64,000 bases of DNA from Planctomycetota bacterium. Lineage in GTDB: Bacteria > Planctomycetota > Phycisphaerae > UBA1845. The notes under the pieces are model-generated. The model worked only from the letters and a program-made list of their open reading frames with translations. It had not been told where the DNA came from and did no database searches. The stretch spans positions 1 to 64,000 of the forward strand of contig JACQXM010000005.1 of the NCBI GenBank assembly GCA_016208685.1, in the 5' to 3' direction. Position numbers and translations under genes: made by a program. Shown in pieces: positions 28,035 to 36,499 of the stretch (position 1 is the first letter of the stretch; each line of letters opens with the position of its first letter).

Positions 28035-28694
28035 ATGATCGGCAACTTCGGACAAGGAGCGAATCCACCATCACCGGCAGCCGTTGCTGGCGGGGCTGGA
28101 GTCGTGCAGGCGGCGAGCGCGGAGGGAGGGGTTTCCGCCCCCATGTCCCGAACCCGTGTCCGTCTGTTGGCCGCTTACTTCCACGTTCAGGCGGTGTTGC
28201 TCACGGTGCTGCTCGTCGTGTTCTGGCCGGAGCGGATGTTGGACACGGCCGGGAAGGAGGCATGGTCCCAGGAGATTCCCCTATTCTTCTGGAGCCCGTT
28301 AACGATCGGGCACGAGCGGCGACTTCTCATCTTGGTCATGTTGGCCGCGGGCTGGGGCAGCTACGTCCACGCCGCGACCTCGTTCACGACGTATATCGGA
28401 AACCGTGCGGCGCGGGTGAGCTGGACGCTGTGGTACGTGCTCCGCACGCCTATCGGGGTCGGCCTGGCGTTGGTGGCCTACTTTGGGATTCGCGGCGGGC
28501 TGATCTCCGCCGGCGCTTCGGTGGATGCGCTCAGCCCATTCGGAGTGACCGGGATTGCCGGAGTCATGGGTATGTTCTCGAAACAGGCTGCGGACAAGCT
28601 CAAGGAGCTCTTCGACGTGTTCTTCCTGTCGAGCCCGGGTCGGGAGGTCCAGCGCCGTGATCGCGAGATGGAGGAGGCCGCCGCGACGCCGTGA
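28035..28694 (+). CDS. Membrane protein of unknown function
   Basis: The 219-residue product has a Gly/Ala-rich N-terminus without a signal peptide and three to four hydrophobic segments: YFHVQAVLLTVLLVVFW, LLILVMLAAGWGSYVHAATS, VLRTPIGVGLALVAYFGI and FGVTGIAGVMGMFSKQ. The soluble C-terminal end is KLKELFDVFFLSSPG with a charged tail. I recognise no family. A later in-frame ATG at 28143 would also leave the membrane part intact. It has its own promoter and is followed by a 255-bp gap before the peroxidase gene. Confidence 0.65.
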   Translation: MIGNFGQGANPPSPAAVAGGAGVVQAASAEGGVSAPMSRTRVRLLAAYFHVQAVLLTVLLVVFWPERMLDTAGKEAWSQEIPLFFWSPLTIGHERRLLILVMLAAGWGSYVHAATSFTTYIGNRAARVSWTLWYVLRTPIGVGLALVAYFGIRGGLISAGASVDALSPFGVTGIAGVMGMFSKQAADKLKELFDVFFLSSPGREVQRRDREMEEAAATP

Positions 28695-28831: not shown

Positions 28832-28949
28832 GGTCCGGCGGTTGATGCGGCGGCGGATGTCGGTAGACTTCGCCGGCGGTTTTGCGGGCGTCGGTTGCGG
28901 TGCGAACCGCCCGGTGTGGATTCCGACCAGGTTCAAAGGGAGATGGACG

Positions 28950-29537
28950 ATGGCGACGAGGTTGCTGCCGCTTGCGGCAGCGGGAGCGATGGCGATGGTG
29001 TGTTCATGGGCTCACGGCGCTGAGCCCCCGGCGGGCGGCGCGTCGATCTACGACTTCACGGTCAAGAGCATCGACGGTCAGGATGTCCCACTGGCGAAGT
29101 ACAAGGGCGACGTGCTGCTCATCGTCAACGTCGCCAGTCGGTGAGGGTTCACCAACAAGACCTACTCCGGTCTGGAGTCGCTGTACAACAAATACAAAGA
29201 CCAGGGCCTGCGCGTGCTCGCCTTTCCGGCGAACAACTTCGGCGGCCAGGAGCCCGGATCGAACAGCGAGATCAAGGAGTTCTGCCGGTCGAACCAGAAG
29301 GTGACCGTCGACCTGTTCGCCAAGCTCTCCGTCGAAGGCGCGGACCAAGCTCCTCTCTACAAGTACCTTACGGGCCATCCCAACACGGATATCGCGGGCA
29401 AGGTGGAATGGAACTTCCAGAAGTACCTCGTCGGGCGCGACGGAACCGTGCTGGCGAAGTTCGGGACGCGTACGCTGCCGGAGGACCCCAAGGTCATCAC
29501 CGAGGTGGAGAAGGCGCTGGCGGCCCCGAAGAAGTAG
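28950..29537 (+). CDS. Exported glutathione peroxidase with in-frame UGA (probable selenoprotein)
   Basis: The frame from ATG 28950 to TAG 29537 is interrupted only by TGA 29142-29144, codon 65. Family homology runs unbroken across it: LLIVNVASR-[UGA][14 protein letters not shown] aligns with the glutathione peroxidase motif NVASxCGFT, where the first Cys or Sec is the catalytic residue. The other catalytic residues are present: Gln100 in FGGQEPG, and Trp154 and Asn155 in VEWNF. The Cys found in the usual FPCNQFG motif is Ala94. The first ~26 residues ([20 protein letters not shown], then AHGAE) look like a signal peptide, so export is predicted. A SECIS-like hairpin follows the UGA. Selenocysteine insertion is inferred; a nonsense mutation is the alternative. 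Reduces hydroperoxides at the expense of thiols, by family. Confidence 0.8.
29164..29178 (+). promoter_or_regulatory. Bacterial SECIS-like hairpin
   Basis: ACTCC-GGTCT-GGAGT forms a perfect 5-bp stem with a GGTCT loop, beginning 19 nt after the UGA. Bacterial SECIS elements place an apical loop with conserved G residues about 16-37 nt downstream of the UGA. As I recall it, the E. coli fdhF element carries the same GGUC core. The lower stem is weak. The hairpin lies inside the coding frame, as bacterial SECIS elements do. Confidence 0.65.
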
Positions 29538-29753: not shown

Positions 29754-30299
29754 CTATGTCAGCCGCGCGACGAGCGCTTTCAGGAACCCCTGCACCAGTG
29801 CCGGCGGGACGTTGGCGAACGTCGGCGGCATTTCATCGAGCATGAGCCCCTCGACGTAGTCTTTTCCCCGCGTTCCTGTCTTGCGCAGCCGCCCGGCCGC
29901 CGCCTCCGCGGCGTCGAGCTTCGAGTCGCGCATCGCCAGAACGAATCTCTCGACTTCTTCCGCGAGGTCGATGACCTGGCCCGGTGCATCCTCGGTGCCG
30001 CGCCGCGGCGCGCCGCCGGCGGCAGCGGCCTTGCCGCGGCCGGCCGGTTCCGCCCCACCGGGTGTGTCGGTCAGTTTGTCAATCACGGCGCTGAACCGGA
30101 CCGCCTCCCGTCGCTCCTCGGCGGCCCGCCGTTCCTCGTCCTCGTCGAGCGGCGCCAGCGGGATTACCCCATCGTCCTCGGGCGGCATGGGAACATAAAC
30201 GCTCTCCATGCAGTAGGGGCACTTGCCGTGCTTTCCGCCGGCGCTCTCCGGCGCTCGAATGAGTTTTCCGCATTTGGCGCAATGCAGCTCGATCGGCAT
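29754..30299 (-). CDS. Zinc-ribbon protein of unknown function
   Basis: The 181-residue product starts with a four-Cys zinc ribbon (CAKC at ~8-11, CPYC at ~27-30) embedded in IELHCAKCGKLIRAPESAGG and GKHGKCPYCMESVYVP. A Pro/Asp-rich acidic segment (MPPEDDGVIPLAPLDEDEE), a charged helix and an Ala-rich helical C-terminus with VIDLAEEVERFVLAMRDSKL follow. No enzyme motif is visible; the ribbon suggests binding to nucleic acid or protein. It lies 15 bp downstream of der on the same strand, so it is probably co-transcribed with it. Confidence 0.75.
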   Translation of the reverse strand: MPIELHCAKCGKLIRAPESAGGKHGKCPYCMESVYVPMPPEDDGVIPLAPLDEDEERRAAEERREAVRFSAVIDKLTDTPGGAEPAGRGKAAAAGGAPRRGTEDAPGQVIDLAEEVERFVLAMRDSKLDAAEAAAGRLRKTGTRGKDYVEGLMLDEMPPTFANVPPALVQGFLKALVARLT

Positions 30300-30313: not shown

Positions 30314-31663
30314 TCAGTGTTCCGCCCGCGTCGCGTCGAACGACGCACGCGCCCGACGCGCCCGCCACAATAATCGTATCGGGATCTCGCCATAGGGCAA
30401 ACGCTCGCGGAAGCGGTTGAGCACGAACCGGCGGTAGTCTTCCGTGACCAGGTCTGGAGCATTCACAAAGACGACGATGGTGGGCGGCTCGGTAGCGATT
30501 TGCGTGGCGTAGAAGAGCTTGGGGGCCCTGCGCCCCCGCCGGGCGCGCGGGGCATGGACCGCCAACGCCTCTTGCAGCATCTGGTTGAGCGGTCCGGTGC
30601 CGACGCGGATACGCGACTGTTTGGAGAGTCCCGCGGCGAGATCGATGGTGGCGTCGATATTCCGGCCGGCGATCGCCGAGGTGAACGCCACCGGGGCGTA
30701 GTCGATTTCGGGCAGCATCTTGTCCAGATACTCACCGTAATCGTCCGATCCCGCCCGGCCGATCGCCTGGTCCCATTTGTTTACGACGATGACGCAGGGC
30801 TTGGCCTCGTCCGCGATCACCTTCGCTAAGCGCTTGTCCACCTGCCCCACCGGTTCGGTGGAGTCGATGAGCAGCAGGACCACGTCGGCGCGGTGGATGG
30901 ACTGCGTGGCCCGCGAGTAGGCGTAGAACTCCACGTCATCGGCGATTTTGCTCTTCTTGCGTACCCCGGCGGTGTCGATGGCCACCAGCACCCGGCCGTC
31001 CTTCTCGAAGCGCACGTCGATGCTGTCGCGGGTGGTGCCGGGGATCTCGCTGACGATGACCCGCTCTTCGCCGGCCAGGGCGTTAATGAAGGTGCTCTTG
31101 CCCGCGTTGCGCTTACCCACCAGGGCGATCTTCATGGCGGGGTCGGCCGGCACCTGGGAGCCGACGCGCGACACCGTTTCTTTGATGAGTTCCAGCAGTT
31201 CGCGCCGCCCGGTGCCGTTCGCGGCGCTTACCGGCAGCGGTTCGCCGTAACCGAGCTTGAGAAACTCGCCGGTGCCGGCGGCGAGGTGCGGTTCATCGAC
31301 TTTGTTGGCGACCAGCCGTACCCGATCGGAGTGCCGCTTGAGCATGTCCGCCGTGCTGCGGTCCAGCGGCGTGAGCCCCTCCCGCGCGTCGACCAGGAAG
31401 AGGATGAGGGCCGCCTGCTCCACGGCGTAACGGATTTGCCGCTCCACGTGCTCGCCCAGATCGTCGCGGTCGACGATGCCGTGGCCGCCGGTGTCTACGA
31501 GTTCGAAGTAAAGGTCGTCCACGTCGCAGATGGTGCTCACCCGGTCCCGCGTGACGCCCGGGGTGGGATCCACGATGCTCATGCGCGTGCGCGCAAGGGT
31601 GTTGAACAGGCTGCTCTTGCCCACGTTCGGCCGGCCGACGATGGCGATGACAGGTAGTGGCAT
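30314..31663 (-). CDS. der: Ribosome-associated GTPase Der (EngA)
   Basis: An essential double-GTPase of 50S ribosomal subunit assembly. From ATG 31663 the 449-residue product has the first G domain (GRPNVGKSSLF, DPTPGVTRDR, DTGG, NKVD) and the second (GKRNAGKSTFINAL, SEIPGTTRDSIDV, DTAG, NKWD), followed by the C-terminal KH-like domain (PKLFYATQIATEPPTIVVFV and FRERLPYGEIPIRLLWRAR). Length fits the family. An in-frame start at 31750 only adds a sequence unlike Der. The zinc-ribbon gene follows at 15 bp. A 7-bp tandem repeat lies upstream at 31756. Confidence 0.96.
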   Translation of the reverse strand: MPLPVIAIVGRPNVGKSSLFNTLARTRMSIVDPTPGVTRDRVSTICDVDDLYFELVDTGGHGIVDRDDLGEHVERQIRYAVEQAALILFLVDAREGLTPLDRSTADMLKRHSDRVRLVANKVDEPHLAAGTGEFLKLGYGEPLPVSAANGTGRRELLELIKETVSRVGSQVPADPAMKIALVGKRNAGKSTFINALAGEERVIVSEIPGTTRDSIDVRFEKDGRVLVAIDTAGVRKKSKIADDVEFYAYSRATQSIHRADVVLLLIDSTEPVGQVDKRLAKVIADEAKPCVIVVNKWDQAIGRAGSDDYGEYLDKMLPEIDYAPVAFTSAIAGRNIDATIDLAAGLSKQSRIRVGTGPLNQMLQEALAVHAPRARRGRRAPKLFYATQIATEPPTIVVFVNAPDLVTEDYRRFVLNRFRERLPYGEIPIRLLWRARRARASFDATRAEH

Positions 31664-31755
31664 AGAACCTTGTACGGTTGCTTCCCTGGACTCAGCGTTC
31701 CATGGAGCGTGGGCAAAACACCGATGCCCCGAACCGAAGCGGTAGGGCACGCAGC

Positions 31756-31858: not shown

Positions 31859-33409
31859 CTACCACCTTTCACAAATGCTCTTCGCCTGGAGGAAGAGCTG
31901 CAGATAATCCCTCCCGCCCGCCTTGGAGTCGGTGCCGGACATGTTGAACCCGCCGAAGGGCTGCACGTCCACCAGCGCCCCGGTGCACTTGCGGTTCAAG
32001 TACAGGTTGCCCACGTGGAACTCGTGCCGCGCCCGTTCCAGCCGCATGCGGTCGCGAGAGAAACACGCCCCCGTCAGCCCATACTGGGTTCCGTTGGCGA
32101 TGCGTAGGCCCTCGTCAAAGTCCTTGCACGCGATCACGGCCAGCACCGGGCCGAAGATCTCCTCCTGGGCGATCCGCGCGTCCGGCGACACACCTTCGAT
32201 GATCGTCGGCGGGATGAAGTGCCCTTTTGCGGGCACCTTTCCCTCGCCCAGCACCAGTCGCCCCTCCCCCCTGCCGACCTTGACGTACTCGTTGATTTTG
32301 TTGTAGGCGGGTTGGTCGATGACCGCGCCCAGGTAGAAGTTGTCGGGCGCCGTCGTGTCTCCGATGGTCAGCTCGCGCGAGCGCGCTACCACGCGTTCGA
32401 GCAACTCGCGATAGACCGCCTGGTGCGCGATGAGCCGGCTGCATGCCGAGCACTTCTGGCCCTGGAAGCCGAAGGCCGACATCACCACCGCCTCCGCCGC
32501 CGCCGGCACGTCCGCCGTCTCGTCCACAAGGATGCAGTCCTTGCCGCCCATTTCCAGCACCGTGCGCTTGAGCCAGATCTGCTCCTTCTGCACCCTGGAC
32601 GCTTTCTCGAAGATGCCGATTCCCACCTCGCGCGAGCCGGTGAAGGAGATGAACCGTGTCAGCGGGTGGCACACCATAGTGTCTCCGACGCTGCTTCCCG
32701 GCCCGGGAACGAAGTTCAGCACGTTTTTCGGCAGCCCCGCTTCGTGCAGAATCTCCACCAGCTTGGCGGCGATTACGGGCGAGGCGCTGGCGGGTTTCAG
32801 GCACACCGTGTTGCCCGTAACCAGGGCGGCCGTGGTCATGCCGGCGCAAATGGCCAGCGGGAAGTTCCAGGGCGGGATCACCACGCCGACACCCAGCGGA
32901 ACGTAGCGCACCTCGTTCTCTTCCCCGGGAAAGGGCGTCGTAGGATGGGCTCCGCCCAGGCGCATCATCTCCCGGGCGTAGAACTCCAGAAAGTCGATCG
33001 CCTCGCAGGCGTCGGCGTAGGCCTCGATCCAGCTCTTGCTTTCCTCGTAGCACATCCACGCCGACAGCTCGTAGAGGCGGCGGCGCATGATGGCCGCGGC
33101 CTTGATGAGCACGCGGGCGCGGACGTCGGGTTCGACACGGCTCCAGGTCTTGAACGCTTCGGCCGCCTGGCGGACGGCACGATCCGCAATGTCGGCGTTG
33201 GCCTTGCACATGACACCGACGACGCGGTCCGGATCGGCCGGCGAGGTGGAGGCAAATGTCTCCTTGGTGGTCACCGCTTCTCCGCCGATCCAGAGGGGAT
33301 AGGTGCGACCGAGTTGCTCGCCCACGAGCTTGAGCGCCGCGAGCATCCGGTGGCGCGGGTCCGGCTGGTTGAAGTCCACGTAGGGCTCGGGCGAATACGG
33401 GGGCAACAT
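31859..33409 (-). CDS. L-glutamate gamma-semialdehyde dehydrogenase (1-pyrroline-5-carboxylate dehydrogenase)
   Basis: NAD-dependent aldehyde dehydrogenase of proline breakdown, giving glutamate. From ATG 33409 the product has 516 residues, typical of the single-domain RocA/PruA group. Visible features are the NAD-binding part (PLGVGVVIPPWNFPLAICAG, FVPGPGSSVGD, FTGSREVG), the catalytic Glu (VLEMGGKD) and the catalytic Cys region (FGFQGQKCSACSR), with the ending FGGFNMSGTDSKAGG typical of P5C dehydrogenases. The track of sequence upstream to 33625 is open but not homologous. No proline dehydrogenase gene is adjacent. Confidence 0.92.
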   Translation of the reverse strand: MLPPYSPEPYVDFNQPDPRHRMLAALKLVGEQLGRTYPLWIGGEAVTTKETFASTSPADPDRVVGVMCKANADIADRAVRQAAEAFKTWSRVEPDVRARVLIKAAAIMRRRLYELSAWMCYEESKSWIEAYADACEAIDFLEFYAREMMRLGGAHPTTPFPGEENEVRYVPLGVGVVIPPWNFPLAICAGMTTAALVTGNTVCLKPASASPVIAAKLVEILHEAGLPKNVLNFVPGPGSSVGDTMVCHPLTRFISFTGSREVGIGIFEKASRVQKEQIWLKRTVLEMGGKDCILVDETADVPAAAEAVVMSAFGFQGQKCSACSRLIAHQAVYRELLERVVARSRELTIGDTTAPDNFYLGAVIDQPAYNKINEYVKVGRGEGRLVLGEGKVPAKGHFIPPTIIEGVSPDARIAQEEIFGPVLAVIACKDFDEGLRIANGTQYGLTGACFSRDRMRLERARHEFHVGNLYLNRKCTGALVDVQPFGGFNMSGTDSKAGGRDYLQLFLQAKSICERW

Positions 33410-33795
33410 CGCGCGTCTCCATCGAAAGGCAGCCAGGCACCGCGACGTTCCCCGTCCGGCCCGGTGCGCGTCACGCAGGTCCTGGGCAGAATCATACTCG
33501 TTGCGCGGGGTCCCCACCATTGAGCGGCCCGCGCTCCGCAGCCGCTCCGTGATGCCGAGGGAGTCGTCGATGGCCGTTTCGCTGGGCTTTGTTGAACCCG
33601 ACTTCGTCACACGGGGCGTCCCCATCCAACGCTATGATCTAAAACTGCTGCTAATCGCCCATTGACGAAGATTCAGCATAAGTGATAGCATCACGTGTGC
33701 GTCGCCACTTGGCGCGCCATTCTGGTACACAATTGCAGGAACAGTGCACTGTGCGGCGGAAGCCGATGTCCCTCAGCGGCTCGAAAGGAGCGACG

Positions 33796-35163
33796 ATGCT
33801 AGTTCTCATCAGCGACCTTCACCTCACGGATGGAACTTCGGGCGAGACGATCAAGGCCGGTGCGTTCAAGCTATTCCGCGAGCGCATCCGTGATCTCGCC
33901 TACGACGCCTCGTGGCGACGCGATGGGAAATACCGGCCGGTTGGGACGGTCAACCTCCTCCTGCTCGGGGACATTCTGGACGTGATCCGCTCCACGCAGT
34001 GGCTCGCGGACGGGGCCACGCGGCCCTGGACCAGGACCGACAAGCCTGCGTTCGCGGAGAAGGTGGCGGCCATCACCGACGGTATACTGAAGGCTAACGC
34101 CGAGAGCCTGGCCGTACTCAAGGGGCTTCAGGACCCGGCGGTGATGACCATCCCGGACGCCGGTGCCGACGGCAAACCCAAGGTCGTGGGGCGCGATCCC
34201 GCCGCCGCGGGGCGAGTGCCCGTAGCCGTCAAAGTGCATTACCTCGTCGGCAACCACGACTGGTTCTATCACCTGCCAGGCGCCAAGTTCGACGCCATTC
34301 GTCGTTCCATCGTCGATGCGATCGGCCTTTGCCATCCGGCGAACGAGCCGTTCCCGCACGATCCCGCCGAATCGGCGGCGATCAGCAAACTCTACGCCGG
34401 GCATCGCGTGTTCGCGCGACACGGCGACATCTACGACCCGTTCAATTACGAGGACAATCGCGACGCATCGTCGCTCGGCGACGCCATCGTCGTTGAGCTG
34501 TTGAACCGGTTCCCGAAGGCGGTGCACGACAGTCTGGGCGACGATCTTTCGGCCGCCTGCAGCGACGGCCTGCGCGAGATCGATAACGTTCGCCCGCTGC
34601 TGCTGATTCCCACCTGGCTCGCGGGGCTGCTGCATCGTCACTGCGCCGATTCCCGGCAGGCCGGTGAGATCAAACGCATCTGGGACGGCCTGGTGGATGA
34701 ATTCGTGGAGAACGCGTTCGTCAGGGAGCACGACCGGCGCTTCTGGCCGGACCTGGTGGACGAGCTCCAGGCCGGGCTCAAGCTCTCGAAGGGCATTTCG
34801 ATGGGTGGGCTGGGCCGGCTGATGAGCTGGTGGAATGAGCGAACCGGCAGCAAGGCCAAGTCCTACTCACGGTATGCGTTGACCGAACGGGCCTTCAAGA
34901 ACCGCAGCGCCCGCTACATCGTGTATGGGCATACCCACCATCATGAAATCGTGCCCCTGGATTCGTCCGTGGATGCCCGGGGCGTCTTCAATCAGATGTA
35001 TCTGAACTCCGGCACCTGGCGCCGGGTTCACGAGCTGGCGGCCGTTCATCCTGAAGAGCAGGAGTTCCTCGACCACTACGTGATGACCTATTTCACTTTC
35101 TTCGACGGCGACGAGCGCGGAGGGCAGGGGTTCGAATCCTGGTCTGGGGCGTTGGGGATGTAA
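33796..35163 (+). CDS. Calcineurin-like metallophosphoesterase
   Basis: From ATG 33796, preceded by a good ribosome site (AAAGGAG, 33784-33790), the product has 455 residues. Metal-binding motifs in order are ISDLHLTDG (near residue 5), LLLGDILDV (~55), YLVGNHDWFYHL (~150) and VYGHTHHHEIVPL (~375), the pattern of class-3 metallophosphoesterases. A large helical insertion sits between the third and fourth motif (LLNRFPKAVHDSLGDDLSAA and following), which is longer than in small family members. There is no signal peptide. The substrate cannot be told from sequence. Confidence 0.85.
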   Translation: MLVLISDLHLTDGTSGETIKAGAFKLFRERIRDLAYDASWRRDGKYRPVGTVNLLLLGDILDVIRSTQWLADGATRPWTRTDKPAFAEKVAAITDGILKANAESLAVLKGLQDPAVMTIPDAGADGKPKVVGRDPAAAGRVPVAVKVHYLVGNHDWFYHLPGAKFDAIRRSIVDAIGLCHPANEPFPHDPAESAAISKLYAGHRVFARHGDIYDPFNYEDNRDASSLGDAIVVELLNRFPKAVHDSLGDDLSAACSDGLREIDNVRPLLLIPTWLAGLLHRHCADSRQAGEIKRIWDGLVDEFVENAFVREHDRRFWPDLVDELQAGLKLSKGISMGGLGRLMSWWNERTGSKAKSYSRYALTERAFKNRSARYIVYGHTHHHEIVPLDSSVDARGVFNQMYLNSGTWRRVHELAAVHPEEQEFLDHYVMTYFTFFDGDERGGQGFESWSGALGM

Positions 35164-35314
35164 AGTCGCGGGCTGCAGGAGCCGGGATCGCACTTCGCGC
35201 CCGCGGTCTTGCGTTGCGGCGGCGGGCGTGGTCGGATGCGGCGGGGCGTCCGGTCGGTCGCGGCCGGACGCCTCGTCCGCGAACGACGGAACGAGGCGAG
35301 GGACCGCCCGCTTG

Positions 35315-36499
35315 GTGGATCGACCAACCTGCAACACGGTGCTCGGCATCACCGGCAACGCCGTCGCGCAACGCGACGGCACATGGTACGTGCATCACTC
35401 CTTCGGCCGGATCGTGGAGCAGCTCGCACCGTACTTCCGCGAGATCCGCTACTTCGGCCCGCAGGCTCCCGCGGCCGTTGCCGGTAGTTGTGACTATCCC
35501 CTGACAGCGCCGAACATCACGGTCCGACCGTGGGAAGTTCGGCGCCATACAGGACACGCCCTCCGCCGGCCGGATCGACTTCTACTCAACTACTGGCGCA
35601 TGTGCCGCGAGTGCGACGTGCTGTTCCTTCGGGGAAGCCCGCCGCTTATCTGGACGGCGCACTGGATGGCTCGGATGCGCGGGCGCCGCCTCGCGCATTG
35701 GGTCGTGGCCAATCCACCGGCCGTGCTGCGTTCCAACCCCCGCGGATATGGCCGACTCGGCGACGCCGCGGGGCTGTGGTTCGCCTTGGCGGAACAGCGA
35801 CTGTTGCGGCTCTCGACCCGGGTAAGCCGGGCGGCGATCCTCGCGAACGGGCAGGAGGTGGCGCGGTTGTTCGTTTCGCCGCGAACCCACGAAGTCGTCA
35901 GTACGAGCATTACGGAACATGACTTTCACGTTCGCGCGGACACCTGCCAGGGAGCCGCGGTACGCGTGTTGTACGTGGGGTTCGTCAGGCCGGAAAAGGG
36001 AATCGAGTACCTGATCCGCGCTCTTGCGGCGTTACGCGTCGATCGCGCCGTGGAGGTGGCGATCGTGGGGTCGTGGGGGCAGTTTGCCGGCGAATATGAG
36101 CGTTTGCGGGCGCTGGCGGGCGAAATAGGCGTGGCCGATGCCGTCCGCTGGGAAGGACATGCTGCTTTTGGGCGGGAATTGTTCGAGCAGATGGACCGGT
36201 CCGACCTGTTGGTGCTTCCGAGCCTTTCGGAGGGCACGCCGCGGGTACTGGTGGAGGCGCGAGCCCGCAGCCTGCCCGTGATCGCCACGAACGTGGGTGG
36301 CATCCCCAGCAGCGTCCGTGATGGCGAGGATGGGCTGCTGGTGCCCACGCGCGATCCTGCGGCGTTGGCGCAAGCTATGACGCGGATCATCTCCGACGGT
36401 GAGCTTCGCCGGGGGCTGATCGAGCGCGGCCGGGAGCGCGTCCGCGGATGGACCGTGGAACGATTCGTAGAACAGGTCGTGGCGCTGTTGCGCGGATGA
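35315..36499 (+). CDS. Glycosyltransferase family 4 protein
   Basis: A GT-B glycosyltransferase of about 394 residues from GTG 35315 (TTG 35312 or GTG 35339 are alternatives; the open frame reaches back to 35228 but is not homologous). The C-terminal Rossmann half is clear: VRVLYVGFVRPEKGIEYLIR, VEVAIVGSWGQF, LLVLPSLSEGTPRVLVEARA and GGIPSSVRDGEDGLLVPTRD, including the E-x7-E-type donor site (EGTPRVLVEA). The acceptor is unknown. It is the first of three closely spaced glycan genes (35315, 36695, 37240). Confidence 0.88.
   Translation: MDRPTCNTVLGITGNAVAQRDGTWYVHHSFGRIVEQLAPYFREIRYFGPQAPAAVAGSCDYPLTAPNITVRPWEVRRHTGHALRRPDRLLLNYWRMCRECDVLFLRGSPPLIWTAHWMARMRGRRLAHWVVANPPAVLRSNPRGYGRLGDAAGLWFALAEQRLLRLSTRVSRAAILANGQEVARLFVSPRTHEVVSTSITEHDFHVRADTCQGAAVRVLYVGFVRPEKGIEYLIRALAALRVDRAVEVAIVGSWGQFAGEYERLRALAGEIGVADAVRWEGHAAFGRELFEQMDRSDLLVLPSLSEGTPRVLVEARARSLPVIATNVGGIPSSVRDGEDGLLVPTRDPAALAQAMTRIISDGELRRGLIERGRERVRGWTVERFVEQVVALLRG

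Follow-up and report, generated by a model that had tools for sequence, protein, structure and literature searches.

The window, a 64,000-nucleotide stretch of planctomycete DNA lying on contig C49 of a 4.79-Mb genome (77 contigs, 93% complete), very probably contains a gene for the selenocysteine (Sec) form of glutathione peroxidase (GPx), to judge from its sequence and that of its homologues. Publications on bacterial Sec-GPx date back to 2005, and this kind of enzyme is already known. What is added here is a planctomycete branch, a probable export of the enzyme and a mixture of Sec and Cys forms inside one family.

The initial annotation had described the in-frame TGA as codon 65 of an otherwise unbroken frame, standing at the catalytic Cys/Sec position of the family with the other catalytic residues intact. 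Translation confirmed that it is the sole break in the frame. In an alignment of 26 sequences, which are 26 of the loci in hand at that stage, the codon falls in a column that is Cys throughout when Sec is read as Cys, and the intact Gln100, Trp154 and Asn155 are invariant; together with residue 65, these are taken here to be the catalytic set of GPx. The homologues carry either TGA or Cys in this column, as the selenocysteine reading expects. The frame belongs to GSHPx (PF00255), scoring 130.9 bits where the cut-off is 27. It also matches the NCBIfam equivalog models PRK10606.1 and gpx7 below their own cut-offs, so that no NCBIfam name is applicable. The AF2 model has a mean pLDDT of 88.6, with low confidence in blocks 1-30, and its nearest solved folds are poplar GPX5, Schistosoma mansoni GPx and human GPX4, all 50 PDB matches listed being GPx-family proteins or GPx-based designs. 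The features of the gene, its neighbours and the related loci of the same genome are collected in Table 1.

Table 1. Features of the predicted Sec-GPx gene, its neighbours and the Sec-related loci of the same genome (positions refer to the window unless a contig is given)
Feature	Position	Strand	Evidence or remark
Shine-Dalgarno-like AGGGAG, 7 nt 5' of ATG	28937..28942	+	sequence reading
Predicted Sec-GPx gene, 195 residues counting TGA as Sec; stop TAG 29535-29537	28950..29537	+	
Signal-peptide-like N-terminus, residues 1-23, ending SWAHG before A	28950..29018	+	read by eye
In-frame TGA, predicted Sec65, catalytic position, UxxT motif UGFT	29142..29144	+	
Apical hairpin of the bacterial SECIS type, ACTCC-GGTCT-GGAGT; loop starts 24 nt 3' of the TGA	29164..29178	+	comparison
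Gln100, catalytic set	29247..29249	+	invariant, 26-sequence alignment
Cys112, probable resolving cysteine	29283..29285	+	invariant in 26 sequences; 22/22 TGA genes
Trp154-Asn155, catalytic set	29409..29414	+	invariant, 26-sequence alignment
EngA/Der-like GTPase	30314-31750	-	Pfam
Aldehyde dehydrogenase	31859-33625	-	Pfam
Metallophosphatase-like protein	33682-35163	+	Pfam
SelB, just upstream of selA	C8:43475 on		320 bits; 364 with second (neighbour) piece; cut-off 242
SelA	C8:45637-46731		466 bits
tRNA-Sec	C44		65.6 bits, gathering 47; loop CUUCAAA = UCA anticodon
SelD (L018), with own in-frame TGA	C77:62659-63579	-	385 bits
L191, thioredoxin/TlpA-like frame, TGA in UPPCRAEAPHL, then 7-bp hairpin	C77:49108-49572	-	same genome
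L196, two-domain redoxin-like frame, two in-frame TGA	C29:190259-190639 and upstream	-	same genome

For comparison among relatives, codon 65 was called in 159 GPx loci, or 157 after repeats were removed (L149, from genome G401 of the window's family, is identical to L022 in the 75 compared bases, and the two were counted as one). These comprised 85 TGC, 49 TGT and 23 TGA. One of the TGA genes (L144) has its codon beside a scaffold gap of N; it was excluded both from the 22 TGA genes discussed below, which include the window gene, and from the tree, but kept in the Fisher test. Two further loci (L188, L189) gave no column 65 and were dropped from the GPx counts.

The perfect hairpin with a GGTCT loop, here a 5-bp stem, had likewise been noted as SECIS-like and within the distance range of bacterial SECIS elements. 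By itself it is weak evidence and thermodynamically unremarkable: its folding z-score is -0.89, 34 of 200 shuffles are equally or more stable, and, of 100,000 synonymous resamplings, 9.6% produce a stem of at least 5 bp and 1.1% such a stem with the loop GGTCT. No Rfam family matched at gathering score on the window, the selA locus or the selD locus, and the interval 29100-29260 gave one weak, unrelated match only, leaving the SECIS without Rfam recognition. What places the hairpin above chance is its distribution. When Watson-Crick stems were sought with a loop of 4-6 nt starting 16-37 nt after the codon and a G in loop positions 1-2, all 22 TGA genes had one at the corresponding place (5 bp in 20, 4 bp in L139 and L167), whereas a 5-bp stem was found in 1 of 134 Cys genes (L084), where both its position and its loop differ; allowing G-U pairs brought the Cys genes with at least 5 bp to 9 of 134. 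The hairpin was absent from the seven same-family Cys genes aligned with the window gene. Fisher's test of hairpin against TGA, L144 included (20/23 vs 1/134), gave p = 4e-21, which serves as a guide only, the related genes being non-independent and the TGA genes having been deliberately oversampled when loci were fetched. The loop begins 24 nt after the TGA (21 nt in L137, L139 and L141) and reads GGTCT, AGTCT, AGTTT or AGGTT among the TGA genes.

Across 21 distinct rows, standard pairs make up 98.1% of the hairpin pair cells, a share that drops to 21-40% when the pairing is slid; one of the five pairs covaries, one has two unpaired cells and three are invariant. The covariation is a closing pair changed from C-G to G-C in L104, L105 and L133 (all from a single genus and making up two distinct rows), which is synonymous on both sides (Ser TCC to TCG, Leu CTG to CTC). 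Shuffles reached the covariation score in 3 of 500 cases and the number of covarying pairs in 96 of 500. Compared with the window gene, codons 72-78, which hold the hairpin, have a median pS of 0.32; their pS is lower than that of the downstream part in 17 of 21 genes and higher in L104, L105, L133 and L163; the hairpin codons thus appear mostly constrained at silent sites.

Having seen no Sec machinery in the window, the initial annotation had expected it elsewhere, and the genome search found selA, selB, selD and tRNA-Sec on other contigs (Table 1). The SelD gene has its TGA within ASCAGUAGKL, followed by a hairpin (GCTCCC-GCT-GGGAGC), and is predicted to be a second selenoprotein of this genome. 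Among the 22 TGA genomes, SelA was found in 21 (as a fragment only in G407), SelB exceeded its cut-off in 20 (it is below in G407 and G281) and tRNA-Sec exceeded the gathering score in 17 (it is below in G407, G411, G420, G405 and G343), in a search limited to scoring 100 of the several hundred candidates in each genome, so that misses are possible. The genome without SelA, G393, does have tRNA-Sec. In G393 the match to selB covers model positions 2-345 of 581 and ends at contig base 696 on the minus strand; the remainder would run to the contig end and leave no room for a selA behind it, as we infer from the selB-selA order in the window's genome. SelA exceeds the cut-off in 263 of the 392 genomes of the phylum and in 53 of the 60 relatives. 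Since it is so widespread, Cys genomes included, the co-occurrence of SelA with TGA-GPx is not discriminating.

Reading through the TGA has to be weighed against three other explanations, all of them very unlikely. An in-frame stop, with a GTG-started open reading frame downstream (29214-29537), could mean a nonsense mutation, leaving either a recent pseudogene of a Cys-GPx or two halves that are separate genes. The window gene is free of any further frame break, however, and TGA stands at the identical position, together with a hairpin that goes with it, in 21 other genes, whose identity ranges down to about 43%. In codons 80-190 compared with the window gene, median pS is 0.63 and median pN 0.27, and each of the 21 comparisons gives a pN lower than its pS; hence the region 3' of the TGA evolves as translated protein. 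There is accordingly very little room for a nonsense mutation. Still less probable is a sequencing or assembly error that turned TGC or TGT into TGA: the genome is a draft in 77 contigs, but the same codon and hairpin recur in other genomes, for example in JAJDEA010000102.1 (L022, Phycisphaerae bacterium OFTM303), whose hairpin is identical to that of the window letter for letter. A genome-wide reassignment of TGA to an ordinary amino acid, in favour of which nothing beyond the GPx frame can be cited, is just as remote, because TGA terminates ordinary frames of the window (28035-28694, 30314-31750, which is the EngA-like gene, and 35228-36499), in agreement with the earlier remark that it is a normal stop here, and the Sec system of the genome is complete.

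Under the preferred reading, Sec insertion at codon 65, a complex of SelB, GTP and Sec-tRNA would bind the hairpin while the ribosome holds UGA65, and Sec would be inserted in competition with termination. The chain would then leave the cytoplasm through its signal peptide. Similar signal-like starts are present in five further Sec genes (L022, L103, L104, L105 and L133); the enzyme is probably exported, as its N-terminus suggests, and a periplasmic location is plausible. The selenolate at position 65, held by Gln100, Trp154 and Asn155, would reduce hydroperoxides, and the resulting selenenic acid would be resolved by Cys112 to give a Sec65-Cys112 selenylsulfide; an extracytoplasmic protein of the thioredoxin-like kind would then reduce this bond. 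We regard the resolving role of Cys112 and the thioredoxin-like reductant as likely. The name 'glutathione' peroxidase leaves the reductant unsettled, and the presence of Cys112 speaks for a cycle of the thioredoxin type; in thioredoxin-type GPx the resolving Cys is presumably that of the EFC stretch, to which Cys112 corresponds.

Within the Sec-GPx reading, the enzyme might instead be of the one-Sec kind, in which a small thiol reduces it directly and Cys112 is structural or accessory. The animal Sec forms of GPx are one-Sec enzymes reduced directly by a small thiol, and the S. mansoni GPx in the alignment has no Cys at the place of Cys112. Against this stands the complete conservation of Cys112 in the 26 aligned sequences and in the TGA genes, as does the account of plant GPX, in the available part of the source, where the second Cys makes the disulfide and thioredoxin is more effective than glutathione (PMC9404953). 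The one-Sec route therefore seems unlikely, and the cycle through a Sec65-Cys112 selenylsulfide is preferred.

Known relatives of the enzyme are found in several systems. Five prokaryotic Sec-GPx sequences with a UXXT motif were described from the Sargasso Sea, in a paper whose available text also describes the bacterial SECIS as a hairpin just after the UGA with a G in a small apical loop (PMC1088965); the hairpin of the window gene likewise lies shortly after the UGA and has a G within its small apical loop. The accessible text of another study lists one bacterial GPx selenoprotein and names Gpx in Treponema denticola (PMC1794560), and a 2026 review, in the part available, mentions a GPX-like protein (PF00255, UxxT, WP_010957027.1) predicted with high confidence (PMC13188914). 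As far as these descriptions go, the bacterial proteins share PF00255, a peroxidatic Sec, the UxxT motif and a SECIS within the coding sequence. By description, the window gene differs from those of T. denticola and the Sargasso Sea in belonging to Planctomycetota, in its signal-like N-terminus and in the loop 24 nt after the TGA. Selenoproteins have been reported in two planctomycetes in a paper whose main text, in the part available, does not contain the term 'glutathione peroxidase' (PMC4807772), and no planctomycete Sec-GPx was named in the literature searched, namely the main texts of open-licence papers. In the portions of that literature covered, only a few sequences represent bacterial Sec-GPx. 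Selenoprotein genes are in general easily split or shortened by standard annotation according to the available text of one of these papers, and on this general point genes like the present one would be prone to such mis-annotation (PMC1088965).

Among solved structures, the best match is poplar GPX5, a thioredoxin-type two-Cys enzyme (2p5q, TM 0.95 by target length, 42% identity), and the solved GPx 26jk has a Cys that aligns with Cys112. Unlike thioredoxin-type enzymes such as poplar GPX5, the window protein is predicted to have Sec rather than Cys at position 65. It also reads FPANNF, with Ala, where several homologues have FPCNQF, with Cys. Human GPX4 has the same fold, the listed entries giving TM values of about 0.80-0.90 by target length, and a Sec active site as well. 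The general difference is that its kind of SECIS is placed in the 3' UTR, whereas the bacterial SECIS of the window gene would lie inside the coding sequence of a probably exported protein. The Escherichia coli fdhF SECIS has the same GGTCT apical loop in the codons after its Sec UGA, although the fdhF loop starts 18 nt after the UGA rather than 24 nt and the stem differs.

Sec and Cys forms are interspersed among the relatives. In a search of named genomes, the best 80 of 216 relatives had TGA at column 65 in L022 and TGC or TGT in the others. Among 392 phylum genomes, at least seven besides that of the window have a TGA in this column (G245, G117, G281, G343, G193, G136 and G120), and G148, the source of L144, has one beside the scaffold gap. 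The 60 relatives include 36 genomes of the window's family. A full-length GPx is present in 23 of these, with TGA at column 65 in 15 and Cys in eight; the other 13 gave weak GPx matches or none. All eight Cys genomes have SelA and SelB and seven have tRNA-Sec, which indicates that the Cys form is not due to loss of the Sec system. With both versions in one planctomycete family whose genomes nearly all have the Sec system, this mixture offers a natural experiment on the reasons for retaining or abandoning selenium in an enzyme. A quick-method tree built from 134 Cys and 22 Sec rows, 156 in all, requires at least five Sec/Cys changes, two of them forced by well-supported branches. Exported-type Sec genes are not united as a single clade in this tree: the Sec genes of families f1, f64 and f71 fall in an unresolved part alongside f1 Cys genes, and three f30 Sec genes (L137, L139 and L141) fall in a separate well-supported group that also holds Cys genes. 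These f30 genes have no signal-like start, read FPCNQF and carry their hairpin 3 nt nearer the TGA. Eight loci tried as Sec-GPx (L132, L134-L136, L138, L140, L142 and L143) were rejected, having Cys at column 65 and their stop (TGA or TAG) outside the catalytic column, at or past one end of the domain. A search of plasmids yielded 184 records, all below 60% identity.

Around the gene, between 28035 and 35163 of the window, no evident operon partner for GPx was seen, and the frames 28035-28694 and 29754-30299 had no Pfam family match. Elsewhere in the genome, two further frames with in-frame TGA are of interest. The thioredoxin/TlpA-like frame L191 is, as a guess, a candidate reductant partner of the Sec-GPx; if export is true, a selenoperoxidase would act outside the cytoplasm beside a candidate selenothioredoxin of the same genome. 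The redoxin-like frame L196 is possibly a double selenoprotein, as its sequence suggests. Its TGA sites lie in SRYUAFSREE and in YGUPAYIV, the latter just before a presumed cis-Pro, and a hairpin is predicted by folding after each. One could imagine an extracytoplasmic selenium relay in which an exported UPPC selenothioredoxin (L191) reduces the selenylsulfide of the exported Sec-GPx, alongside the two-Sec redoxin-like L196, in a family that has GPx as a Sec form with SECIS and a Cys form without, the machinery being kept in both; such a scheme is speculative and, on present evidence, improbable.

Frames like L191 also occur in relatives (L181, L182, L183 and L186 with UPPC, L187 with UGPC), and two redoxin-like frames, L185 (G394) and L184 (G423), have TGA in WUPFC and UPPFRR motifs, respectively. 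As candidates for GPx, L181-L187 were rejected and dropped from the GPx counts, being other thioredoxin-like proteins.
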